Shown here one piece after another: positions 33,011 through 45,073 of a DNA stretch of 64,000 nt. The notes beneath the pieces were generated by a model that ran no database searches, was not told the DNA's origin, and saw only the letters and a list, made by a program, of their open reading frames with translations. Source of the DNA: Thiovibrio frasassiensis (GTDB lineage Bacteria > Desulfobacterota > Desulfobulbia > Desulfobulbales > Desulfurivibrionaceae); the NCBI RefSeq assembly GCF_029607905.1, contig NZ_JAPHEH010000001.1, positions 1,641,530-1,705,529 on the forward strand, written 5' to 3'. Position 1 is the stretch's first letter, and every line of letters starts with the position of its first letter. A program made the translations under genes and the position numbers.

Positions 33011-34588
33011 ATGGGAAACTTTGAGCAAGGGTGCGGAGACGCCAGGGAGCAAGAAATAAAGGGGTTGCTCCAGGCCAATCGGGATTTGCAGCAAGAACTG
33101 GAGGCGCATCGGCTGAGCGAAGCGCAGCTCGCCCGGGAGCTTGTCCAGGCCGAGCTTGCCCTGCGGGTTATTCCCAGCGCGGCCTTAAGCCTGGATCTCC
33201 ATGGCAGGATCACCAGCTGGAACAACAAAGCCGAGCGGGTTACCGGTTACAGCCGGGAAGAGGTGCTGGGCCATTCCTGCGAAATATTTGCCCTGGGTCC
33301 CTGCGCGCAGGAATGTGAGACTTTTATCGATGATCAGGGCAATGCCCTGATCGGCAAGGTCTGCCAGATCAAAACCCGGGACGGTAAGGTGCGGAGCGTT
33401 TCCAAAAATACCGACCTGTTGAAGGATCCGGATGGCACGGTGACCGGGGCGGTGGTGACCTTTACGGATATCACCGAGCAGTTGGAAGTCGAATTGCAGC
33501 TGCGCACCGAGCGGGATAAGTTCCGCGGGATTCTCTCCGCCCTCGACCAGGGCATGCACATTCTCAATCGTGATTATGTCATCGAATATCAAAACGAGAT
33601 CCTGCGCCGGACCTTTGGCGACAAGATCGGCGAGAAATGCTACGAGGTCTACAAACAGCGCGACAAGCCCTGCGAGGTGTGCCGCATGCATGCCGCCATC
33701 GAGCGCAACGAGATCCAGCGCACCGAGGAGATCATGTCCGACCGTCGCCACTATGAACAGAGTTATGTGCCCTTTGCCGATGTCGACGGCCAGACCAAGG
33801 CTCTGATTCTCCTGCGGGATGTCACCGAAGAAAAGATGTACCGGGCCGAAACCATGCGGGCCGGTCAGCTTGCCTCCATCGGTGAGCTGGCCGCCGGAGT
33901 GGCCCACGAAATAAACAACCCCATCAACGGCATCATCAACTACGCCCAGGTATTGCTCGACGACTCCAGCCAGGTGTCCATGGAGGACGAGGCAAGCAGT
34001 CCGATGCAGCGGGAGATGCTCGGCCGGATTATTAAGGAAGGGGAGCGAATTGCCTATATCGTGAGAAATTTGTTGTTTTTCGCCCGCCAGCGTGAGGAGG
34101 AGGCGGAGGTGGTCGCAATCGAGGCGATCATCCACGATTCCTTGTCCCTGATCAAACACCAGCTCCAGAAAGACGGGGTGACTATCAAGACCGATATCTC
34201 CCCTGACCTGCCATCCATCCGGGTGCATCCCCAGCAGCTGCAGCAGGTTTTTCTCAATCTGCTCAGCAACGCCCGTTACGCCCTCAATCAGCGATATCCT
34301 GGCAGAGATCCCGGCAAGAAGGTGGAAATCCGCTGCCAGGCCGTGGAAAATCAGGGCCGGCACCTGGTGCGTACGCAAATCACCGATTATGGCCCGGGAA
34401 TCTCGCCGGAGCTGCTTACCAGGATCTTTGAGCCGTTTTTCTCCTCCAAGAAACCGGGGGAGGGAACAGGCCTGGGGTTGTCCATCAGCGCCGGGCTGGT
34501 CAGGGATTTTCAAGGGCAGCTCAGGGTGGAGAGCGAGCCGGGCTCGCATACCACCATGACCGTTGATCTGCCGGCATATGCAGAGTGA
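33011..34588 (+). CDS. PAS-domain sensor histidine kinase
   Basis: 525-residue soluble kinase. A coiled-coil start (ELEAHRLSEAQLARELVQAE) leads to PAS 1 (about 55-160) with a Cys-containing segment GHSCEIFALGPCAQECETFI. PAS 2 (about 170-270) carries CYEVYKQRDKPCEVCRMHAA. These Cys could bind heme, a metal or an iron-sulfur centre. HisKA has His in GVAHEINNPINGIINYAQVL. HATPase is intact: N box QQVFLNLLSNARYALN, G1 DYGPGISPE, G2 GTGLGLSIS. The partner NtrC-type regulator begins 45 bases downstream. Closely related to the degenerate kinase at 42746. Confidence 0.93.
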   Translation: MGNFEQGCGDAREQEIKGLLQANRDLQQELEAHRLSEAQLARELVQAELALRVIPSAALSLDLHGRITSWNNKAERVTGYSREEVLGHSCEIFALGPCAQECETFIDDQGNALIGKVCQIKTRDGKVRSVSKNTDLLKDPDGTVTGAVVTFTDITEQLEVELQLRTERDKFRGILSALDQGMHILNRDYVIEYQNEILRRTFGDKIGEKCYEVYKQRDKPCEVCRMHAAIERNEIQRTEEIMSDRRHYEQSYVPFADVDGQTKALILLRDVTEEKMYRAETMRAGQLASIGELAAGVAHEINNPINGIINYAQVLLDDSSQVSMEDEASSPMQREMLGRIIKEGERIAYIVRNLLFFARQREEEAEVVAIEAIIHDSLSLIKHQLQKDGVTIKTDISPDLPSIRVHPQQLQQVFLNLLSNARYALNQRYPGRDPGKKVEIRCQAVENQGRHLVRTQITDYGPGISPELLTRIFEPFFSSKKPGEGTGLGLSISAGLVRDFQGQLRVESEPGSHTTMTVDLPAYAE

Positions 34589-34633: not shown

Positions 34634-36421
34634 ATGATTGATCTGGACAAATCAGAGACCAGAATACTGGTGGTGGATGACGAAGAAAGCCTGCGGCTGA
34701 CCTTTCAGATGTTTCTCGGCCGCGAAGGGTACGGGCCGGTATTGACCGCCTCGACCTTTGAAGAAGCCATGGAGCTCATCGAACAGCAGACCTTTGATCT
34801 GATCATCAGCGACATCGTCATGGAGGGGGCCTCCGGCATCGATTTGCTGCGGCGGGTCCGTGATCTGGGCTTGGAGTGCCCGGTGGTCATGGTCACCGGG
34901 TATCCCAATATCAACACCGCCTCCGAGGCGGTGCGTCTTGGCGCCTTTGATTATCTGGCCAAGCCGGTGAAGAAGGCCGATTTGCTCCGCACCGCGCGGA
35001 TGGCCTTACAGCAGTATGGGCTCTGGAAGGAGAAGGAGCGGCTCACCGAGGAGAAGGAGCGCTACCAGCAATATCTTGAAACGATCTTCCGCAGCGTTCG
35101 GGACATGATCATCACCGTCGATCATGATATGCGGGTGGTGCAGATGAATGATCAGGCCAAGAGTTGGGCGGCCATGCACATGCCCGGTCTTGCCATCGGT
35201 GCCAGTTTGGCGGAGGTGGCCGAGTGCTTCTCCGGTTTTGCCGCTGACGCGCAGAAGGTTCTGGAGTGTCGGGAAGCGGTGAGCGAACATCGGATTGAGG
35301 TGAATCCGGATGGTGGCGGGCATGTTGTTTTCCGGCTCTGTGCGGCGCCCTTGGAAAGCCAGCAGGGCAAGGATTTTCTTGGGGCGGTGCTGGTGTTTCG
35401 CGATGTGAGTCGGCTGGAAGATCTGGAAAAACGGGGCAAGCGCACCTATTTTCACCGGTTGGCCGGGGTAAGCCGGGCCATGCAGACCGTGTACACCCTC
35501 ATCGAGAATGTCGGGCAGGTGGACACCTCGGTTCTGATCACCGGGGAATCCGGGACCGGCAAGGAGCTGGTGGCCGAGGCCCTGCACGCGGAAAGCCCGC
35601 GCCGGGACATGCCCCTGGTGAAGTTCGATTGTACTTCCATCCCGGAAAATCTCATGGAGAGCGAGCTGTTCGGCCATAAGAAGGGCGCCTTCACCGGAGC
35701 GGATCGCAACCGCGAGGGGCGGATTCTCCAGGCGGACGGCGGCACCCTCTTTCTCGATGAGATCGGCGATATCTCCCCGCTCATGCAGCTGCGGTTGCTT
35801 CGTTTTCTCCAGGAGCGCACCTTCTATCCGGTTGGCGAGGACAGGCCAGTAACGGTTGATGTGCGGGTGGTGGCCGCCACCAACGCCGACTTGAAACAGA
35901 AGGTCCAGCGCGGAGAATTCCGGGAGGATCTCTACTACCGGTTGCGGGTGATTGACATCACCCTGCCGCCGTTGCGGGAGAGACAGGGGGATCTGCCCAT
36001 CCTGGTGGAGTTGTTCCTGGCCCGTTTCAGCAAACGGCTGAACAAGAATATCACCGGCATCTCCGATCAGGCACTGCAGCTGCTTGCCGCTTACCGCTGG
36101 CCGGGGAATGTCCGGGAGCTTGAGCATGTGGTGGAGCGCGCCTGTGTGTTGTGTCCAGACGATACCATCACCACGGGCAATCTTCCGGAAGAGGTGCGCA
36201 GCGGTGGCCGTGAGGGCGGTGCAACATTTATGGGCGCGGGAGTCGAAGCCCCAACCACTGTTGAGAGCAAGGGGGTATCTTCCCTCTCACCGGAAAACGA
36301 GAAGGCGCATCTCCTCAGCATCATCGCCCAAACCGATGGCAACAAGGCCAAGGCCGCCCGGTTGCTGGGCATTGACCGCAGCACCCTCTATCGGAAGATG
36401 AAGGCCTACGGCTTGGAATAA
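34634..36421 (+). CDS. NtrC-type sigma-54-dependent response regulator with internal PAS domain
   Basis: 595 residues. Receiver (about 10-125; Asp in LIISDIVMEGASG, Lys in LAKPVKK), coiled linker, PAS-like domain (about 155-265), AAA+ sigma-54 activator domain (about 275-515: Walker A GESGTGKELVAEAL, the sigma-54 contact loop KGAFTGADRN, Walker B GGTLFLDEIGD, sensor region YRWPGNVRELEHVVERA), and a Fis-type helix-turn-helix (NKAKAARLLGIDRSTLYRKM). GAFTGA is intact, so it should activate sigma-54 polymerase. Two sigma-54 promoters lie downstream at 36725 and 39735, the likely targets. Confidence 0.95.
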   Translation: MIDLDKSETRILVVDDEESLRLTFQMFLGREGYGPVLTASTFEEAMELIEQQTFDLIISDIVMEGASGIDLLRRVRDLGLECPVVMVTGYPNINTASEAVRLGAFDYLAKPVKKADLLRTARMALQQYGLWKEKERLTEEKERYQQYLETIFRSVRDMIITVDHDMRVVQMNDQAKSWAAMHMPGLAIGASLAEVAECFSGFAADAQKVLECREAVSEHRIEVNPDGGGHVVFRLCAAPLESQQGKDFLGAVLVFRDVSRLEDLEKRGKRTYFHRLAGVSRAMQTVYTLIENVGQVDTSVLITGESGTGKELVAEALHAESPRRDMPLVKFDCTSIPENLMESELFGHKKGAFTGADRNREGRILQADGGTLFLDEIGDISPLMQLRLLRFLQERTFYPVGEDRPVTVDVRVVAATNADLKQKVQRGEFREDLYYRLRVIDITLPPLRERQGDLPILVELFLARFSKRLNKNITGISDQALQLLAAYRWPGNVRELEHVVERACVLCPDDTITTGNLPEEVRSGGREGGATFMGAGVEAPTTVESKGVSSLSPENEKAHLLSIIAQTDGNKAKAARLLGIDRSTLYRKMKAYGLE

Positions 36422-36422
36422 C

Positions 36423-36446
36423 AGAGTGTTGCATCTGCAACACTCT
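36423..36446. promoter_or_regulatory. Palindrome, candidate enhancer site (or attenuator) after the NtrC-type gene
   Basis: A perfect 10+10 inverted repeat with ATCT in the middle. Its core TGTTGCA-TC-TGCAACA (36427-36442) is a dyad of the kind bound by Fis-type HTH domains, and another half-site TGCAACA lies at 36455-36461. The same half-sites recur as an inverted pair at 39466-39497, ahead of the second sigma-54 promoter. It lies about 285 bases upstream of the -24 element. It may also act as an RNA hairpin. Confidence 0.5.
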
Positions 36447-36463
36447 GCCACACATGCAACAGC

Positions 36464-36501
36464 AAAAGTGTGGCGCCACAATCGTTGGCGCCACACTTTT
36501 T
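36464..36501 (+). terminator. Strong rho-independent terminator after the regulator gene
   Basis: AAAAGTGTGGCGCCA (36464-36478), loop CAATCGT, TGGCGCCACACTTTT (36486-36500) plus one more T. The 15-bp stem has A and T tracts at its base, so it can terminate both strands. It ends the five-gene DsrE-kinase-regulator operon. The rest of 36502-36724 shows no gene. Confidence 0.9.
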
Positions 36502-36724: not shown

Positions 36725-36742
36725 TTGGCACACCCTGTGCAA
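36725..36742 (+). promoter_or_regulatory. Sigma-54 (RpoN) promoter
   Basis: TTGGCACACCCTGTGCAA: GG at 36727-36728 and GC at 36739-36740 with exactly 10 bases between, matching TGGCAC-N5-TTGCA in all key positions except one T. Transcription would start near 36752, about 58 bases before the first small membrane protein. The sigma-54 activator gene ends 300 bases upstream. Confidence 0.8.
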
Positions 36743-36809: not shown

Positions 36810-37025
36810 ATGAAGAACACATTGCAAAAACAGGGACTCGGTCTTGGCGAACTTGATCAGGCAGCAATCGGTGAGGGAGTATCCCAGGCAGGTGTGGGTG
36901 TCATTCTTGCCCTGGCAACTTTGATCGGTTTATGGGGTATTGCCTGTTTGATCGGCGGGATGAGCAGCATGGGCGGCATCATGGAACTGGGCCGCGGCTG
37001 GCTTACCGCTGTAACCGGAATGTAA
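36810..37025 (+). CDS. Small membrane protein, sigma-54-controlled
   Basis: 71 residues from ATG 36810, preceded by AGGAGGCTCACC; the frame is open 13 codons upstream but without a ribosome site. The soluble N-terminus is MKNTLQKQGLGLGELDQAA, followed by one long hydrophobic Gly-rich helix (about 30-55) with GVGVILALATLIGLWGIACL and GGMSSMGG. No known family recognised. It shares the IGLWG/A-x-A-x-L core with the next gene, so the two may be distant paralogues or helix-packing partners. First gene behind a sigma-54 promoter, with an excellent Shine-Dalgarno, so probably highly expressed. Confidence 0.8.
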   Translation: MKNTLQKQGLGLGELDQAAIGEGVSQAGVGVILALATLIGLWGIACLIGGMSSMGGIMELGRGWLTAVTGM

Positions 37026-37094
37026 ATAAACGGAAAATACACCAGCGATCAACTGTAGATCATAGAAAAACAGAATTCAACAAGGAGAAGGATC

Positions 37095-37403
37095 ATGACA
37101 CAGGCAACAGCAGAAAAGAAAGGCGCAGGGATTTTCATGGCAGTAATGGGCGGCATTGGCGCGGTGATCGGGTTGTGGGCACTTGCCGCCTTGAGTTTCA
37201 GCATCTCCAAGGCAGGTTTGGGTGAAGTGGTTCGCCAGTACATGGTGGCCATTGGCCTGATCGGCGAGCAGGCAACCCTGGTGGATTTCTACACCCATAT
37301 CAAGGGCGTTGAGTACCTGGTTTGTGTTGCCTTCTTTGCAGCATTCCCGGTGTTCTTCAAATATGTCAACACCCCGAAGGTTACGGTTCCCGGCCAACGC
37401 TGA
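37095..37403 (+). CDS. Small two-helix membrane protein
   Basis: 102 residues; ATG follows AAGGAGAAGGATC. Helix 1 (about 11-36) contains GGIGAVIGLWALAALSFSIS and helix 2 (about 70-88) contains VEYLVCVAFFAAFPVFFKYV. The segment between is amphipathic (GEVVRQYMVAIGLIGEQATL). No recognised family. It may be a small accessory subunit of a membrane complex, perhaps of the NrfD-like module encoded after ftsH, or a substrate or regulator of the FtsH-type protease. A terminator follows. Confidence 0.8.
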   Translation: MTQATAEKKGAGIFMAVMGGIGAVIGLWALAALSFSISKAGLGEVVRQYMVAIGLIGEQATLVDFYTHIKGVEYLVCVAFFAAFPVFFKYVNTPKVTVPGQR

Positions 37404-37444: not shown

Positions 37445-37495
37445 TTACGGCCCCTGATGCCGCATAAACGGCTAACCTTGTAGTACCTCCCTCTG

Positions 37496-37522
37496 AGCCC
37501 GGGTTCGCCCGGGCTTTTTTTT
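37496..37522 (+). terminator. Strong rho-independent terminator before the FtsH-type gene
   Basis: AGCCCGGG (37496-37503), TTCG tetraloop, CCCGGGCT (37508-37515), followed directly by a run of T to 37522. The small membrane protein mRNA ends here, so the FtsH-type gene needs read-through or its own promoter. Confidence 0.93.
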
Positions 37523-37625
37523 GCTCTTTATCTGAGGGAGAAAGGCAGTCTGGTCAATAGGTATGGTCCGGATGTTGCAATATGTTTCAGTTACACAAAG
37601 CAGTCATCGTGTAAGGAGGGAGACC

Positions 37626-39434
37626 GTGGCCAAATACGTGCGAAATTATCTGTTGCTCATGCTGACGGCAGTCCTGGCGGTGGTCGGGTACAACATCTGG
37701 CTCGTGGAAAACCGACCGTCCATGCTGGAGTACTCCGCTTTTCTGCTCAGGTTGGACAACAACGAGCTCCAAGGGGTGCGGCTCCTGGGGCAGGAGATTA
37801 TCGCGACGGACAGCTACGGCCAGTCTTTCTCGACCTATGCCCCGGATGTGGCGCAGCTGCTCCCCAGGCTTGAGGCCAAGAAGGTCCGGATCTCCGCCGC
37901 GAAGCCCCAGTCAGCGTCGCCGTTCTGGTCTTCAACCTTTCCGGTTCTCCTGCTCATGGGCGGCTGGATGTTTTTCATGCTTCGCAGCCAGAAAGGCGGC
38001 AGCAGCGGTTTTGGCAAAAAAAAGGTCGCCATGGCCCCGGAAAAGGCCAAAGGGGTATCCTTTGCCGATGTGGCGGGCATTCCGGAGGCCAAGGAGGAAC
38101 TGGTTGAGATCGTGGAATTCTTGAAGGACTCCGAGAAGATCACCCGTCTCGGCGGCAAGATCCCCAAGGGCGTCCTGTTGCAAGGACCTCCGGGGACCGG
38201 AAAAACCTTGCTGGCCAAGGCCATTGCCGGGGAAGCCGGGGTGCCCTTTTTCAGCATCAGCGGTTCGGATTTTGTCGAGATGTTTGTCGGGGTCGGCGCC
38301 TCACGGGTGCGGGATCTTTTTGCCCAGGCCAAAAAAAGTGCGCCCTGTATCATCTTTATCGATGAAATCGATGCGGTGGGGCGCAGCCGTGGGGCAGCCG
38401 GGGCCATGGGCGGTCAGGATGAGCGGGAACAAACCCTCAATGCCCTGCTCGTGGAGATGGATGGGTTCGAGAGCGATCAAACCGTCATCATTGTTGCCGC
38501 CACCAACAGACCCGATGTTCTCGACCCGGCCTTGATGCGGCCGGGCAGGTTCGATCGCCAGGTCACCATCATGCCTCCCGATGTCAAAGGGCGGCGTAAG
38601 ATTTTAGAAGTCCATTCCCGCCACGTCCTCATGGACCCGGACGTTGACCTGCAGGTTGTGGCCCAGTCCACCCCGGGCTTTACCGGGGCAGAGCTTGCCA
38701 ATCTCATCAATGAATCCGCCCTGATGGCGGCGCGCAAGGGCAAGGCGGGCATCCAGCTCAGCGATATCGAGGATGCCAAGGATAAGATCCTCATGGGCGC
38801 CGAACGAACCGGGCTGGTGATCAGCGAGCAGCAGCGTAAGGTTACAGCCTACCACGAAGCCGGGCATGCGATCATCGCCAAGGTGTTGCCCAACACCGAT
38901 CCGGTGCATAAGATTACCATCATCCCCAGGGGGCAGGCCATGGGCGTGATGCAACAGGTGCCCATCGATGACCGCCACGCCTATTCCAAGGAATATCTGA
39001 CCAACCGGATCACCATCCTGCTCGGCGGCAGAACGGCTGAGGAAATCATTTTCAACGAATTCTCCACCGGGGCCAGCAACGATTTGCAGGCGGCCACGGA
39101 TATCGCCACCCGCATGGTCTGTGAGTTTGGCATGAGCGAACGGCTTGGGCCGCGGGCCTTTGTTACTCCGGATCAAGGGTTTCTCGGCAACGGTTCGCGG
39201 CAGCGTCCATACAGCGAAGAGATTGCCCGAACGATTGACGAGGAGGTCAACCGGATCATCGCCGAGTGCTACCAGGAAGCGATTATCGTCCTCGAAGGGC
39301 GAATCACCTTTTTGCATAAGCTGGCCGAGGTCCTTCTCCTCAATGAGACCATTGATGCGGAAGAGGTTGATATCATCGTGACCTGTCCGAAGTTGACCGA
39401 AGAAAATAAAGTGAAGACCGGGCTATCCGGTTGA
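37626..39434 (+). CDS. FtsH-type AAA+ membrane zinc metalloprotease
   Basis: 602 residues from GTG 37626, which follows AAGGAGG at good spacing; the frame is open 21 codons upstream without such a site. TM1 (about 5-26), a periplasmic domain of about 70 residues, TM2 (about 100-118). AAA module: Walker [14 protein letters not shown], Walker [14 protein letters not shown], second region of homology with [16 protein letters not shown]. The zinc site HEAGHAI is complete. Located in a respiratory-module locus rather than next to tilS/folP, so it is probably a specialised paralogue, although whether another ftsH exists cannot be seen. Confidence 0.92.
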
Positions 39435-39458: not shown

Positions 39459-39510
39459 TGTCGCATGCAACACATGTGATGCTACACATCTGTTGCATGC
39501 GACACTTTTT
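39459..39510 (+). terminator. Terminator after the FtsH-type gene, also a candidate regulator-binding dyad
   Basis: TGTCGCATGCAACA (39459-39472) pairs with TGTTGCATGCGACA (39491-39504). After one C/C mismatch an inner stem ATGTG/CACAT closes an ATGCTA loop. A T5 run follows at 39506-39510. It contains TGCAACA and TGTTGCA half-sites in inverted order, matching those near 36427-36461. The remaining sequence up to 39734 shows no gene. Confidence 0.85.
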
Positions 39511-39734: not shown

Positions 39735-39751
39735 TGGCACAGGATGTGCTT
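39735..39751 (+). promoter_or_regulatory. Sigma-54 (RpoN) promoter of the cytochrome operon
   Basis: TGGCACAGGATGTGCTT: GG at 39736-39737 and GC at 39748-39749, 10 bases apart. It shares TGGCACA-N4-TGTGC with the site at 36726-36740. Start of transcription would be near 39761, leaving a leader of about 130 bases before the cytochrome ATG. Confidence 0.7.
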
Positions 39752-39890: not shown

Positions 39891-40424
39891 ATGGGAGGAA
39901 GAAAGAAGACACTCTTGGGCATGGCCGCGCTAATGCTCCTGACCGCGCCGCTTGCCGCGCAGAGCTGGGCCGCAGATGGCCCGGGCACGGTGGAACTTGG
40001 CACTCTGGCACACCATTATTCCCCAGTGACCTTTGACCATGCCATGCATACCACGGTGGCAGCCAGCTGCGCAGAGTGCCATCACCACACAACCGGGGCT
40101 GCCCCCACCGATCCAAGCTGTGCTCGCTGTCATGAAGCCGGGGCAAAAGCGAAAAGCGTAGCCTGCAAAGACTGCCATTCCGACTCGCGGTTCTCCGCGG
40201 AAGACCTGGCGAAGATCGAGGGAAATCCGCAGCGCTATCATAAGGGCAAGCCCGGTCTCAAAGGGGCTTATCATCAGAAATGCCTTGGCTGTCACACCAG
40301 CATGGGCGGACCGACCGGTTGCCAGGATTGCCACACCAGAAACGATAAGGGAGACGCCTTTTTCAATTCGGGCAAATATGCCCCGGCCCCAACCGCTGGT
40401 GGCGGACATGGCGGCGGGCATTGA
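39891..40424 (+). CDS. Pentaheme periplasmic cytochrome c
   Basis: 177 residues; ATG 39891 follows AGAAGGAGACC. A cleavable Sec signal, KTLLGMAALMLLTAPLAAQS ending near WAA, is followed by five CxxCH heme motifs: CAECH, CARCH, CKDCH, CLGCH and CQDCH. Extra His residues (HAMHTTVAA, HHHTTGAA, YHKGKPG, YHQ) can give bis-His ligation as in class III c3/c7-type cytochromes. The C-terminus is His/Gly-rich (GGGHGGGH). It would accept electrons from the iron-sulfur/NrfD-like pair encoded next. All intervals are CxxCH, unlike classical tetraheme c3, which mixes CxxCH and CxxxxCH. Confidence 0.92.
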   Translation: MGGRKKTLLGMAALMLLTAPLAAQSWAADGPGTVELGTLAHHYSPVTFDHAMHTTVAASCAECHHHTTGAAPTDPSCARCHEAGAKAKSVACKDCHSDSRFSAEDLAKIEGNPQRYHKGKPGLKGAYHQKCLGCHTSMGGPTGCQDCHTRNDKGDAFFNSGKYAPAPTAGGGHGGGH

Positions 40425-40479: not shown

Positions 40480-41406
40480 ATGAAAAAGTTAAACCGCAGA
40501 AGTTTCTTGAAAGGCGGACTGGCCGGTGGCGCTGCCATCGCCGCCGTCGGAACAAGCAAACAGGCCGTGGCCGGGACGCATAATTTTGGCGGCTACCCGG
40601 ACAGCATGGGGGTGCTTGTTGATCTTACCAAATGTGTCGGCTGCCGGACCTGTGAGGCCGCCTGCAACAAAGAGCAGGCGTTGCCGACGCCGGACAAACC
40701 CTTTGACGATCCTTCCGTATTTGAAGAGAGGCGCGAGGGTGGGTTGCCGAGAAGGACAACGGAAAAGGCCTATACCGTAGTGCAGAAGTATGATGTTCCG
40801 GGTCGGGAACACCCGCTGTTTCGTAAGGTGCAATGCAACCACTGCAATGAACCCGCCTGCCTGACCTCCTGTTTTGTGAATGCTTACAAAAAGACGCCGG
40901 AAGGCGCGGTTATTTATGATAAAACCGTCTGCGTTGGCTGCCGGACCTGCATGATCGCCTGTCCTTTCTATATCCCGGCCTACAGCTATTCCAGTGCCAT
41001 CAATCCGGTGGTGAAAAAATGCATCATGTGCTACGACACCCGCCTGAAATTCGGCCGACCTCCGGCCTGTGTCGAAGCGTGTCCCCAGGAAGTAATGACC
41101 TTCGGCAAGCGCAAGGATCTCCTCAAGCTGGCCCATCAGCGGATCAGTGAGAAGCCGGACAAATACGTGGATCAGGTCTATGGCGAAAACGAGGTCGGCG
41201 GCACGGCCTGGCTGTATATGTCCGATGTACCCTTCGACAAGATCGGCTATGACAACCATCTCGGGACCCAGCCGATCATCAGTTACGTCAAGGAGTTCCT
41301 GGCGATGGTGCCGATGGTGCTGACCATCTGGCCCGCGCTCTTCACCGGCTTTCATTTGCTGAGCAACCGGAAAGACGCCCTGAAAAACGACGATAATAAA
41401 AGCTGA
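40480..41406 (+). CDS. Tat-exported ferredoxin-like subunit with four [4Fe-4S] clusters (NrfC/HmcB-like)
   Basis: 308 residues. The Tat signal MKKLNRRSFLKGG ends near AVAG. Four Cys groups follow: CVGCRTCEAAC, CNHCNEPACLTSC, CVGCRTCMIAC and CIMCYDTRLKFG with PPACVEAC, the NrfC/PsrB/HmcB pattern for four cubane clusters. A C-terminal TM helix (FLAMVPMVLTIWPALFTGF) anchors it facing the periplasm, as in HmcB. It should relay electrons between the quinol site of the NrfD-like protein and the pentaheme cytochrome. Lies 55 bases after the cytochrome gene and 16 before the NrfD-like gene. No molybdopterin subunit is encoded nearby. Confidence 0.94.
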   Translation: MKKLNRRSFLKGGLAGGAAIAAVGTSKQAVAGTHNFGGYPDSMGVLVDLTKCVGCRTCEAACNKEQALPTPDKPFDDPSVFEERREGGLPRRTTEKAYTVVQKYDVPGREHPLFRKVQCNHCNEPACLTSCFVNAYKKTPEGAVIYDKTVCVGCRTCMIACPFYIPAYSYSSAINPVVKKCIMCYDTRLKFGRPPACVEACPQEVMTFGKRKDLLKLAHQRISEKPDKYVDQVYGENEVGGTAWLYMSDVPFDKIGYDNHLGTQPIISYVKEFLAMVPMVLTIWPALFTGFHLLSNRKDALKNDDNKS

Positions 41407-41422: not shown

Positions 41423-42673
41423 ATGAATAGCTTAAAATCACAAGGGTTCGCCCCTGTTGTCTCCGATCTCAAGAAAGATGGGAGTACATGGACCGTAAAA
41501 GAGAAGATTATGCTGGGGCTCAGCCCCAAAGAGTACTGGGCTGTGCAGCTCCGCAACCCGTTTAATTGGCTGCTCTGGGCCATTTATGCCATCGGGCTGC
41601 CGATCCTCGTGGGTCGGTTTATCTTTGGCCTGGGCTGGGTCACCCATTCCTCCTATGACTATCCCTGGGGGCTGTTTCTCGGCTGGGGCTTGTTCGTCAT
41701 GGTGCCGCTCTCCGCTTCCGGCTTCATGATGGGAACCACGGTGGAGCTTTTCGGGCGCAAGGATTTCAAGCCCATCGAGCGGCTCGGCCTGTTGAACGGC
41801 CTTCTGGGCTATACGTTTGCGGTCATGTTTCTCCAGGTGGATCTTGGCCAGCCCTGGCGTCTGATCTACCCCATGTTCGTCTCCTTGGGACCTGCGGCAG
41901 TGCTGTTTCTCGTGGCCTGGCATGTGGCCACCTATCTTTCCTGTCAGGTGGCGGAGCTCGTTCCCGCCTTTTCCGAGTGGATGGGTTTCCCCAAAGCCAA
42001 GAAGTTTATCAAAAGCATCGTCCTCGGTTTGACTGTAGCCGGGATTATCCTTTCCACCCTGCATCAGGGGGCGCTAGGGGCGTTGTTTACCTATGCCCCG
42101 GGCAAGGTGCATCCGCTCTGGTATTCTTCACCCTTTCAATGGCTCCATTTCTTTGTGTCAGCGGTCTTTGCCGGATTGTCCATGCTCATTGTGGTCAGCA
42201 CCCTGACCAAATGGTTCATGCGCTGGCGGTGTGATGAAAATTACCTGAACAACCTGAGCAAATTGACCCTGGGTCTTGCCAAGGGCGCTTCCCTTGCCTT
42301 GATCACCTATCTGGTTATCAAGATCATCGGTATTGCCCATGACAATAACTGGGCGTATCTGCTCACCGGTTGGGGTGCCTGGTTCATGTTCGAGATGGTG
42401 GTGGGGGTCATTCTGCCGTTGATTTTCTACACCATGGCCGTGCGCAACAGCAACGCCTCCTTGGCCCGTTTCGCCGCTTTTATGGCGGTTTTCGGCCTGG
42501 CCCTGAACCGTTTGAATACGGCGCTTATCTCCTTCAACTGGCAATTGTATCAGGAGCTTCCCCATTGGCGGGAAGTGGTAATCGTGGTCACCGTGTATGC
42601 CACCTATATCGTGGTCTATCGGGCGGTTCTGGCCAGGATGCCGATCCTCTATACCTGGAAGGAAAAGAAGTAA
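41423..42673 (+). CDS. NrfD/HmcC-like integral membrane quinol-interacting subunit
   Basis: 416 residues with about ten TM segments. NrfD-superfamily features are visible, including NPFNWLLWAIYAIGLP at the first helix, the early acidic and Gly-rich helices (GLGWVTHSSYDYPWG), FLQVDLGQPWRLIYPMF and the His-containing STLHQGALGALFTY. Such subunits oxidise or reduce menaquinone and pass electrons to a partner iron-sulfur protein. Third gene of the sigma-54-controlled cytochrome operon. GAGGAGAGGTGG precedes the ATG. Confidence 0.93.
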   Translation: MNSLKSQGFAPVVSDLKKDGSTWTVKEKIMLGLSPKEYWAVQLRNPFNWLLWAIYAIGLPILVGRFIFGLGWVTHSSYDYPWGLFLGWGLFVMVPLSASGFMMGTTVELFGRKDFKPIERLGLLNGLLGYTFAVMFLQVDLGQPWRLIYPMFVSLGPAAVLFLVAWHVATYLSCQVAELVPAFSEWMGFPKAKKFIKSIVLGLTVAGIILSTLHQGALGALFTYAPGKVHPLWYSSPFQWLHFFVSAVFAGLSMLIVVSTLTKWFMRWRCDENYLNNLSKLTLGLAKGASLALITYLVIKIIGIAHDNNWAYLLTGWGAWFMFEMVVGVILPLIFYTMAVRNSNASLARFAAFMAVFGLALNRLNTALISFNWQLYQELPHWREVVIVVTVYATYIVVYRAVLARMPILYTWKEKK

Positions 42674-42745: not shown

Positions 42746-45073
42746 ATGGCATTTCCGCTGAAGAAAACGATTCCTGCCACCGCAGTCTCGGTCGCGGTGA
42801 TTCTTGTGGCCCTGCTCTGCCTGGGGATCAGGCAGTATCAACTGTACCGCAATTATGCCGAGGTCAGCCGACAAACCGAAAAACTCGTCTTTCAGTTCGC
42901 CGTCATCCGGGAACATGTGACCGAAAACCTGCTGGAAGGGCAGTATGGTGGCTTGGCCTCGGTGGGTGCGGAACTGGAGGAACTCAATCTCAATCTGGCA
43001 ACCGTTATCGGGAACCGGTTCATAGACGATCATTACAAACTCACTTTGGCCAATGCCATTGACCTGCCCGGCCTAGTCCTGCTGGTGCGCAAGATCAGCG
43101 GCGGCCCAGCCAAGCCGGAATACCTGCGGCAACTCAATACGGAAATCCGCACCCTGGGAGAGCGGCTCATGCTCTTCGATCGGGTGCTGGTCGAGCATGG
43201 CAAACGCGAACTGATCAGCTTTCAGAATGTGGTGATCGGGGCTCTGGCCATGGTGGTCAGCCTGATCATCGTGCTGCTGCTTTTTTTTCAACGGCGCTTG
43301 ATTGCGCCACTGTTGGCGCTTGTCCAGCAGGTGAAAGAGGTGGCCACCGGAACCAGGGGTGGGCTTGCCATTGGAGGGAGGAGCGGGGAGATCTCCGAGC
43401 TGGCCTATTCGTTTCATGATCTGTTAACGGCCCGCGACATCACCGCCCAGGGGCTGGCAAAGTTCCAGCGGGTGGCTTCGGCGGTCACCGGAGCGCAGCT
43501 GGCAATCGCTCGGAGTAAAAGCAGGGCTTCGCTTTTTCGCGAGGTATGCCGGGCCCTGCTGGCAAACCATGAGTATTGCCTGGTTTGGATCGGACAACCC
43601 GACGAGACCGGGGATATCATGCCGGTGACCGCGGACGGCGCGACCTCCATGAGCAATAAGGAATGCGAAACCTGCATGGCGGTATTGCTCACCGAGGCCG
43701 AGGACAAGGGGGGCGAGCGGAATCCTGCCGCCCTGGCTCTGCGTTCAAAGGCTCCGGTGGTGCGGGTGGATATCCTGGCCGGTATTCCCAAGGGATTGCT
43801 CAAGGGAACTCCTCTGGCCGACGGGCATGCGGCCTGTGCGGCCTTGCCGGTCATTTGGCAGAATACCGTTTACGGCGTGCTTTCCATCTATGCCCTCTCT
43901 CCCTCGGATTTTGACACCAAGGAGATGGAGCTGCTTGAAGGGCTGGCAGGGGATCTTGGCCTGGCCCTGCACACCATCGAGGGACAGCAGCATCTGCTGA
44001 GCAGAGAAAACCTGCATGCTCAGCTTTTTGAAGCCCTGCGGGTGATTCAGCTCTCCCTTTCGCCGGCCGGGGCTATTCTTGGCGTGAACCCTGTCTTTGC
44101 CGGCATGGCTGGGGTTGGTGCCGAGCAGATTGTTGGCCGCGACTGGCGCGATTTTTTTAGCCCGGTTCAGGCGGCGCCACCAGGCGACACATCGGATCTC
44201 TTGGAAAAACTGCGCTCGGATGCGGGGGCTGAACTGATGGTTTCTCGCCTGACTGGCTCCAGGCGGTTCTTGTGTCGGATTGTGCCGGAGCAAGAGGGGT
44301 CCGGTGAGCCTGAACGGTTGATTCTGGTAGGCTATCCCCTCGTCCGCGTTGAAGGGGTCGGCGGCTGCGAAGCGAACTTGGGGCTGGAAATGATCGCGGA
44401 CCTGGCCGGCGGAGTCTCGCACGAGGTGAGCGATCTCAGCAATGGCCTGATCAACTATGCGCAGGTGTTGGCCGATGAGGAGCAGCTCAGAAGACCTGGG
44501 CAGCCGGAGAACGAGGTGCTCGCCAAGGTCATTGAGGCTGGGGAACGGATTGCCGAAATAGTCCGAAAGTTCATCCTCTATGGACAGGACGAGGTCACAG
44601 CAGCGGGAGAGTTTTTGCCGGTGGCAACGGTGCTGGAGGATGCGCTGCTGCTCATCGGCTATCATCTGAAAAGCGAGGGCATCCAGTTGGAGACCGATCT
44701 TGAGGCGGTGCCGCCCGCGTTTCCCGTGCATGCCCAGCACATGCAGCAGGTTTTTTTGAGTATTCTCAGCACAATACGGACTGGCCTGGTCGAGAGGTTT
44801 GCCGCAAGGGATCCGCGAAAAAAACTCAGCATCACCACGCACACCAGGGTGGAGAATGGCCAGGGAAGAATGTTTGAGATCTCCATCATGGATCATGGGG
44901 CCGTGATTCCGCTTGAGTCCGGACACAACCAAGAACCACGGTCCGGCAGGTGGGGGCGCAGGCTTGGTGTCTGCCGCCGAATTGTGGAAGAGCACGGAGG
45001 CCGCTTGGTGATCGGCGGTGAGGAAGAGGAATATGTCAGGATACGCTTCAGTTTCCCGTTAAAGGGGGATTGA
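42746..45073 (+). CDS. Membrane sensor protein with degenerate histidine-kinase domain
   Basis: 775 residues. TM1 (about 8-27), periplasmic sensor (about 28-165), TM2 (about 166-188), HAMP-like linker, GAF-type domain (about 245-415, with CLVWIGQPDE and CAALPVIWQNTVYG), PAS-like domain (about 425-530), then a HisKA-like helix retaining His in GGVSHEVSDLSNGLINYAQV. The ATPase part aligns by eye with the 33011 kinase but has lost key boxes. QQVFLNLLSNAR there is QQVFLSILSTIR here, so the N-box Asn is gone, and DYGPGI there is DHGAVI here. ATP binding is therefore doubtful. Likely a pseudokinase sensor acting with the intact kinase/regulator pair (inference). Confidence 0.87.
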   Translation: MAFPLKKTIPATAVSVAVILVALLCLGIRQYQLYRNYAEVSRQTEKLVFQFAVIREHVTENLLEGQYGGLASVGAELEELNLNLATVIGNRFIDDHYKLTLANAIDLPGLVLLVRKISGGPAKPEYLRQLNTEIRTLGERLMLFDRVLVEHGKRELISFQNVVIGALAMVVSLIIVLLLFFQRRLIAPLLALVQQVKEVATGTRGGLAIGGRSGEISELAYSFHDLLTARDITAQGLAKFQRVASAVTGAQLAIARSKSRASLFREVCRALLANHEYCLVWIGQPDETGDIMPVTADGATSMSNKECETCMAVLLTEAEDKGGERNPAALALRSKAPVVRVDILAGIPKGLLKGTPLADGHAACAALPVIWQNTVYGVLSIYALSPSDFDTKEMELLEGLAGDLGLALHTIEGQQHLLSRENLHAQLFEALRVIQLSLSPAGAILGVNPVFAGMAGVGAEQIVGRDWRDFFSPVQAAPPGDTSDLLEKLRSDAGAELMVSRLTGSRRFLCRIVPEQEGSGEPERLILVGYPLVRVEGVGGCEANLGLEMIADLAGGVSHEVSDLSNGLINYAQVLADEEQLRRPGQPENEVLAKVIEAGERIAEIVRKFILYGQDEVTAAGEFLPVATVLEDALLLIGYHLKSEGIQLETDLEAVPPAFPVHAQHMQQVFLSILSTIRTGLVERFAARDPRKKLSITTHTRVENGQGRMFEISIMDHGAVIPLESGHNQEPRSGRWGRRLGVCRRIVEEHGGRLVIGGEEEEYVRIRFSFPLKGD

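Follow-up and report, generated by a model that had tools for sequence, protein, structure and literature searches.

The window, a stretch of 64,000 nucleotides of contig NZ_JAPHEH010000001.1 of Thiovibrio frasassiensis, which is related to sulfate-reducing bacteria, carries on its forward strand a block in which a kinase and a sigma-54-dependent regulator are followed by two small membrane proteins (P1 and P2), an FtsH-type protease and the genes of a proposed short Hmc-like complex. Its features, in window coordinates, are as follows.

33011-34588, + strand: PAS-domain histidine kinase, the likely partner of the regulator (Pfam HisKA, HATPase_c and PAS; its order beside P1-P2 is kept in relatives)
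34634-36421, + strand: sigma-54-dependent response regulator with receiver, PAS, AAA+ and Fis-type HTH parts (Pfam; conserved neighbour)
36427-36461, + strand: candidate regulator-binding site, palindrome TGTTGCATCTGCAACA plus TGCCACACAT (TGCYACACAT core; putative function)
36464-36500, + strand: terminator-like hairpin 3' of the regulator gene (hairpin scan)
36726-36741, + strand: sigma-54 -24/-12 promoter-like site TGGCACACCCTGTGCA 5' of P1 (10/12 consensus positions; aligned and conserved in same-genus relatives)
36810-37025, + strand: P1, 71-aa membrane protein, a single hydrophobic helix followed by a short helix at the C-terminus
37095-37403, + strand: P2, membrane protein of 102 aa that has two hydrophobic helices, the N-terminal half P1-like and the C-terminal half HmcD-like
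37495-37516, + strand: terminator-like hairpin with T-run at the end of the P1-P2 unit (hairpin scan)
37564-37579, + strand: sigma-54-like site TGGTCCGGATGTTGCA 5' of FtsH (10/12)
37626-39434, + strand: special-clade FtsH-type AAA+ metalloprotease (Pfam Peptidase_M41 and AAA; NCBIfam FtsH above cut-off; tree)
39460-39503, + strand: candidate regulator-binding site, inverted GTCGCATGCAAC / GTTGCATGCGAC flanking TGCTACACAT (TGCYACACAT core; putative function)
39735-39750, + strand: sigma-54-like site TGGCACAGGATGTGCT 5' of the cytochrome operon
39891-40424, + strand: five-heme cytochrome c (five CXXCH motifs; weak Cytochrome_C7/HmcA/TmcA similarity)
40480-41406, + strand: HmcB-like iron-sulfur protein bearing a Tat signal (its 407.9 bits against NCBIfam HmcB narrowly miss the cut-off of 420; TAT_signal)
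41423-42673, + strand: HmcC-like NrfD-family membrane subunit (NCBIfam HmcC 357.2 bits, cut-off 550; Pfam NrfD)
42746-45073, + strand: second kinase-like protein with GAF, PAS and weak HATPase_c parts (GAF_2 above cut-off; HATPase_c 20.8 bits, below the cut-off of 26.4; conserved position)

The cytochrome-HmcB-HmcC operon begins 2.5 kb 3' of P1-P2, and the sole further protein assigned between 39.4 and 45.1 kb is the kinase-like one. The whole block, from kinase and regulator through P1-P2 and FtsH to cytochrome-HmcB-HmcC, was found again in relatives, and in some of them (L024, L025, L027, L015, L034, L035) the P1-P2 pair is tandemly duplicated. The description of the two proteins as isolated in the original prediction is contradicted by this conserved neighbourhood and by the many paralogues of P1 (see below). 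Each of two P1 copies has a sigma-54-type site of its own in L002, L005 and L034.

Both open reading frames, of 71 and 102 residues, lie where they had originally been placed, and the strong ribosome sites claimed for them are present as AGGAGG 5' of P1 and AAGGAG 5' of P2. Differences at codon positions 1/2/3 among same-genus orthologues (225/82/496 over 28 pairs for P1; 190/74/633 over 21 pairs for P2) support coding and purifying selection on both genes. The predicted common core, IGLW[GA] followed by A-x-L, occurs as IGLWGIACL within P1 and IGLWALAAL within P2. Compared as single sequences the two give only a weak alignment (48 residues at 29%, pairwise E 5e-4), while their family profiles align in hhalign with a probability of 95.9 (E 5e-9) over the helix and the short helix after it, against 0.1 and 1.4 in control comparisons of P1 with two HmcD-type small membrane families. 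With controls this low, the IGLW core is common to P1 and P2 beyond chance and reflects homology; and since P1 aligns with P2 but not with the HmcD-type families, P2 is composed of a P1-like half and a different half. In an alignment of 31 P1 proteins W42, G56 and G70 never vary and C46 hardly does; the invariant positions of 24 aligned P2 proteins include W28, T61, Y66, I69, K70, G71, E73, Y74, F84 and P85. AlphaFold2 models, of low-to-moderate confidence, silent on partners and used for helix counts alone, place helices at residues 2-54 and 57-69 of P1 (mean pLDDT 72.1) and at 2-52 and 62-91 of P2 (low confidence, mean pLDDT 59.7). With E up to 10 allowed, a sequence search of solved structures gave P2 a single match (Otopetrin-2, E 0.27), and HmcC had none at E 0.01, so that no structure was at hand in which to place the subunit.

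The different half of P2 is related to HmcD, a small membrane subunit of the respiratory complex Hmc that is encoded together with HmcA, HmcB, HmcC, HmcE and HmcF. The P2 of the window scores 14.8 bits (E 0.02) against NCBIfam HmcD (NF045712, sulfate respiration), below the cut-off of 34 bits, and is therefore not an HmcD under the curated rule; a search of Pfam at E up to 1 matched no family to P2, ActD-type families included. Each of the 24 aligned P2 homologues, however, gives a weak match to the HmcD model with E no higher than 0.1 (1.5e-6 at best), and the reverse search with that model retrieves P2 homologues in G028, as two copies (E 0.001), and in G055 (E 0.006). Profile comparison by hhalign links P2 to HmcD (93.8), P2 to stand-alone short proteins (99.7) and these short proteins to HmcD (89.5), so that homology to the HmcD helix is recognisable. 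Like HmcD, P2 shows a T..D-F..K-G..Y pattern in its C-terminal half and is a small membrane protein of a type encoded with HmcB and HmcC; unlike HmcD, it has roughly double the length, bears a P1-type helix in addition, falls below the curated cut-off and stands in a unit of its own in the window, where the block comprises a five-heme cytochrome, an HmcB-like and an HmcC-like protein rather than the full Hmc set.

Searched across the phylum, the P2 profile has matches in 26 of 297 genomes, and nearly all of those outside the order cover the C-terminal half only (13 such loci were examined at length and eight weaker ones left out). In all 13 long loci (L238-L250) the stand-alone C-terminal-half protein adjoins HmcB and HmcC: in the ten loci L238-L247, from other families, it is a protein of 53-62 aa immediately 5' of a five-heme cytochrome-HmcB-HmcC operon, and in L250 it is a 43-aa HmcD-type open reading frame 3' of HmcC. 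Homologues of P2 likewise adjoin cytochrome-HmcB-HmcC genes in L266-L270. Judged on sequence comparison, P2 is homologous to HmcD over its C-terminal half, and we hold with good confidence that it is an HmcD-type subunit.

Co-occurrence was assessed in 58 genomes, comprising that of the window and 57 relatives. Absence of conserved homologues had been set beforehand as the outcome that would count against the original prediction; conserved homologues were found, with P2 in 33 and the P1 family in 40 of these genomes. A close HmcC is encoded in 38 genomes, and P2 occurs with HmcC in 33, without it in none, HmcC without P2 in 5 and neither in 20 (Fisher 2.9e-11; because genomes and loci share ancestry, this and the other Fisher value below are descriptive and overstate significance). 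In four of the five genomes with HmcC alone (G015, G016, G048 and G057) contigs end in the interval expected for P2, and in the fifth (G031) HmcC is more distant and goes with a 15-heme cytochrome, with a 52-aa HmcD-like open reading frame behind it. The tie of P2 to the special FtsH described below is looser (26 of 33). Against P2 as an Hmc-like subunit stand the separation of the P1-P2 unit from the operon in the window and the location of P1/P2 elsewhere in the genome, away from HmcB/HmcC, in G028, G041 and G050; for P2 in L034 and L038 and for a diverged second P2 of G028 (L251), no HmcB or HmcC was found in the stretch examined.

P1 has a different distribution. A single-sequence search found its family in 40 of the 58 genomes, and a profile search raised this to 41 by adding G049. 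The P1 of the window matched nothing in Pfam, NCBIfam or PHROGs at E up to 1, and 31 P1 homologues searched against Pfam gave six families, each matched by one member only. Titles and abstract openings of the literature searched, which covered few subscription papers, hold no description of P1, P2 or the module; the P1 family is thus, as searched, without description in literature and libraries, and it is much duplicated. The genome of the window has one clear P1 paralogue, whose neighbours at 473.7 kb include a cytochrome b561 and a seven-heme cytochrome, and paralogues are numerous elsewhere in the order.

The FtsH gene of the window belongs to a special clade, split from 10 general FtsH rows with support of 100/99 in a tree and separated from them also by a two-profile comparison. 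This tree has 37 rows, as 7 of 30 P1- or Hmc-linked loci and 17 of 30 loci from the FtsH search contributed no usable or new complete open reading frame. Three rows labelled 'general' fall inside the special clade: two are the Hmc-linked FtsH of G032 and G055, and the third, on contig 9 of G028, has no P1 within 13 kb. In the 58 genomes P1 occurs with the special FtsH in 37, without it in 3 (G034, G042 and G051), FtsH without P1 in 1 and neither in 17 (Fisher 9.7e-11, again descriptive). The lone genome with FtsH and no P1, G049, has a P1 beside FtsH on profile search, so that all 38 genomes with special FtsH, three of them counted from partial matches, have P1. These two sets of counts show P2 tracking HmcC and P1 tracking the special FtsH, and thereby bear out, at the level of genome presence and absence, the original proposal of a link to FtsH or to the NrfD-like subunit. 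Among 15 further stretches with special FtsH, a P1-family open reading frame was found in 6 (L302, L308, L309, L314, L315, L316); the other 9 show no P1, and several of these sit at contig ends.

The surroundings of 80 P1-family loci were compared with 20 control stretches at arbitrary chosen positions in 10 genomes. FtsH of at least 51% identity occurs in 29 of the 80 loci and in 0/20 controls (31 loci were FtsH-positive, of which L072 and L134, with a match of 29% only, were not counted). A NapC-type multiheme cytochrome is present in 19/80 against 0/20, a sigma-54 AAA domain in 27/80 against 0/20 and an open reading frame with four or more CXXCH in 37/80 against 1/20, whereas kinase probes (17/80 against 3/20) are not clearly enriched. 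None of the marker genes lies nearby in 26 of the 80 loci, and P1 is present in 7 HmcC-negative genomes of the 40; HmcC alone therefore cannot be the partner of P1, and those 7 genomes led to the rejection of an HmcC-specific subunit role for P1.

Several P1 paralogues stand in recurring gene sets. The paralogue in the genome of the window (L063:6655-9282, contig 1, about 473.7 kb) is accompanied by a sigma-54 activator and by two tandem 139-aa proteins of one membrane-like family, of which the one scanned has no Pfam match; the set of b561, seven-heme cytochrome and 139-aa proteins recurs in L065, L071, L103, L119, L131 and L158. In L067, L153, L155 and similar loci, blocks of P1, FtsH and NapC-type cytochrome form a respiratory locus near a molybdopterin oxidoreductase, which in L067 also includes a nitrate-reductase-delta-type chaperone and a NosL-like protein. 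Outside the order, L256, L257 and L258 encode distant P1-like proteins with a C-terminal GGP..W..A..G motif and no marker neighbours except one kinase match in L256.

The sigma-54 promoter originally claimed for P1-P2 is borne out by the 10/12 site at 36726-36741. Seven sigma-54-like sites at 10/12 occur on both strands of the window, where about 5.75 are expected, so that it is the conservation of the P1 site in same-genus relatives that makes it credible, though one 10/12 site alone is not unusual. Across the family, a -24/-12 site of at least 10/12 lies 5' of 64 of 124 leading P1-family genes (not independent, as they include orthologues), where shuffled sequences gave 0.4 and 186 control open reading frames gave 1; the leading gene thus has the conserved 5' site that membership of a sigma-54 regulon entails. 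Sites at 8/12 were not used, given their high background (48/186 control open reading frames). The two other units of the block have comparable sites. Among 17 other loci whose DNA 5' of FtsH was usable, all but L263 and L271 have one scoring at least 9 at 50-105 bases from that gene (15/17), and one of at least 9 also stands 5' of the cytochrome in 18 of 20 other loci having both special FtsH and cytochrome (not in L261 and L271), and the cytochrome-operon site of the window is identical in L021, L023, L024, L028, L029, L232 and L233. Cytochrome upstreams carry no site of at least 9 in any of L266-L269 and in 9/10 of L238-L247, and the sigma-54 link is therefore missing outside the block. The predicted terminator of the P1-P2 unit is present as the hairpin with T-run at 37495-37516; since the hairpin scan found 2 where 1.5 are expected, a terminator-like hairpin alone is weak evidence.

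The motif TGCYACACAT occurs twice in the window, only 5' of P1 and 5' of the cytochrome (0.15 expected). It stands 5' of P1 in 8 of 9 same-genus loci, with L026 one base off; in these 8 the exact motif lies 5' of P1 alone. An inverted pair of its core was found between FtsH and cytochrome in L109 and L263, and the position of the core 5' of the cytochrome varies among species. None was seen in L032, L162, L262, L264, L265 or L270, and there were 0 in a 280 kb control; a palindrome pattern allowing 3 mismatches showed no enrichment over the window. As the motif precedes both units in the window only, a common binding site is a lead. The simplest reading, which these sites suggest, is that P1-P2, FtsH and the cytochrome operon may form one regulon under the adjacent kinase/regulator pair.

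Known systems offer partial precedents. In alternative complex III, which includes a pentaheme cytochrome, ActD is described as a two-helix subunit with both ends cytoplasmic that contacts the NrfD-type ActC close to the quinol pocket, and the single-helix ActG as seemingly not essential for catalysis (passages in PMC5928083). The places of P2 and P1 could be comparable to those of ActD and ActG, with the likeness of ActD to P2 confined to proposed position and topology; considerable portions of ActD lie on the cytoplasmic side. A sigma-54 enhancer-binding protein, DVU3142 of Desulfovibrio vulgaris, has been placed over the Ohc electron-transfer complex (PMC4641369), which gives a precedent for the proposed regulon in that a cytochrome/iron-sulfur/membrane complex comes under a sigma-54 regulator; it is another complex under another regulator, and the main text of that paper contains neither 'Hmc' nor 'FtsH'. 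Passages on Qrc/NrfD-family quinone modules (PMC6303296) describe HmcC as a close relative of QrcD and HybB that is probably electrogenic, as QrcD is; they call the direction of electron flow through HmcC uncertain and do not discuss a small HmcD-type subunit. HmcD itself is dashed in a proteomics table of PMC10920352, the text of which counts HmcBCDE among the detected proteins.

The homologies, gene order, co-occurrence and conserved promoter-like sites are direct results of computation, and the following joint reading, to which we assign a probability of about 0.6, builds on them: P2 would be a subunit of HmcD type extended by a P1-type helix, P1 its companion subunit or assembly factor, and both under common sigma-54 control. 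P2 would then belong to a short Hmc-like complex of five-heme cytochrome c, HmcB and the HmcC/NrfD quinone subunit, having acquired an N-terminal transmembrane helix of P1 type. It is likely a hairpin with both ends cytoplasmic, which would put the conserved T-x-V-D-F-Y-T-H-I-K-G-x-E-Y at the periplasmic face, where HmcC meets quinone and HmcB, and P2 could there stabilise or tune electron exchange between menaquinone and cytochrome. P1 would be a single-helix companion, most likely an accessory subunit or assembly factor, and the dedicated FtsH would police the complex containing it. The adjacent kinase and regulator would switch on P1-P2, FtsH and cytochrome-HmcB-HmcC jointly through sigma-54. 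P1 and P2 would associate physically with the complex. The original suggestion that such proteins are subunits or regulators missed by annotation is thus well supported for P2, as an HmcD-type subunit, and plausible for P1, for which a role mainly as companion subunit or assembly factor comes somewhat short of even odds.

The main rival makes P1, with the P1-like half of P2, the partner of the special FtsH, as an adaptor, inhibitor or dedicated substrate steering the protease to respiratory complexes. It draws on the presence of P1 in every genome counted with that FtsH, on the 29/80 against 0/20 of the locus comparison and on the pairing of P1-FtsH with varied electron-transfer partners (HmcB-HmcC, NapC-type multiheme cytochromes). 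Yet G034, G042 and G051 keep P1 beside P2 and hmc-type genes without special FtsH, the first helix of P2 is retained in G029 and G035, which also have none (it is diverged in G052 and G054), such an FtsH is absent from the stretch in 51 of the 80 P1 loci, and P1 is absent from 9 of the 15 further special-FtsH stretches, several of them at contig ends; we regard this rival as unlikely. A broader reading, likewise unlikely, is that P1 represents a new family of sigma-54-controlled single-helix proteins that pair this FtsH clade with any quinone-multiheme complex under construction, with P2 as such a helix joined to HmcD, which would fix the protease-linked module permanently in the respiratory complex.

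Two further accounts were weighed. P1 and P2 might be sigma-54-controlled envelope-stress proteins of a phage-shock-like kind, with the respiratory genes merely co-regulated. Sigma-54-type sites 5' of P1 paralogues in very different contexts, and a sigma-54 activator domain in 27/80 P1 loci and no control, would fit; the restriction of P2 to genomes with HmcC among the 58, the identity of its C-terminal half elsewhere as an operon-encoded HmcD relative and the lack of similarity of either protein to a stress family in Pfam, NCBIfam or PHROGs make this improbable. Small proteins of the MgrB type are the model for the other account, in which P1 and P2 modulate the adjacent sensor kinases and feed back from the respiratory complex to the regulator. 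A kinase and a sigma-54 regulator are indeed constant neighbours in the Hmc-type block, but kinase probes hit 17/80 P1 loci against 3/20 controls, and HmcD-like operons occur without a sigma-54 activator match in L266, L242 and L244-L247, of which L266, L244 and L246 also have no kinase match; this account we consider the least probable of all.

Under the joint reading, P2, blank in family libraries, gains an identity as an HmcD-type subunit masked by the gain of an N-terminal helix, and nature offers forms with the extra helix and forms lacking it, on which the part played by the small subunit can be tested. P1 defines a family that follows one FtsH clade, and if P1 does tie a private protease to respiratory complexes, it would represent a new form of quality control of multiheme electron-transfer chains.

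HmcD-like helices also occur in other fusions. In L089:1498-2211, L091:895-1614, L096:907-1602 and L097:1474-2169 such a helix is N-terminal to a soluble domain, which we take to resemble glycine-cleavage H protein, and in L095 it stands ahead of a multiheme cytochrome part.
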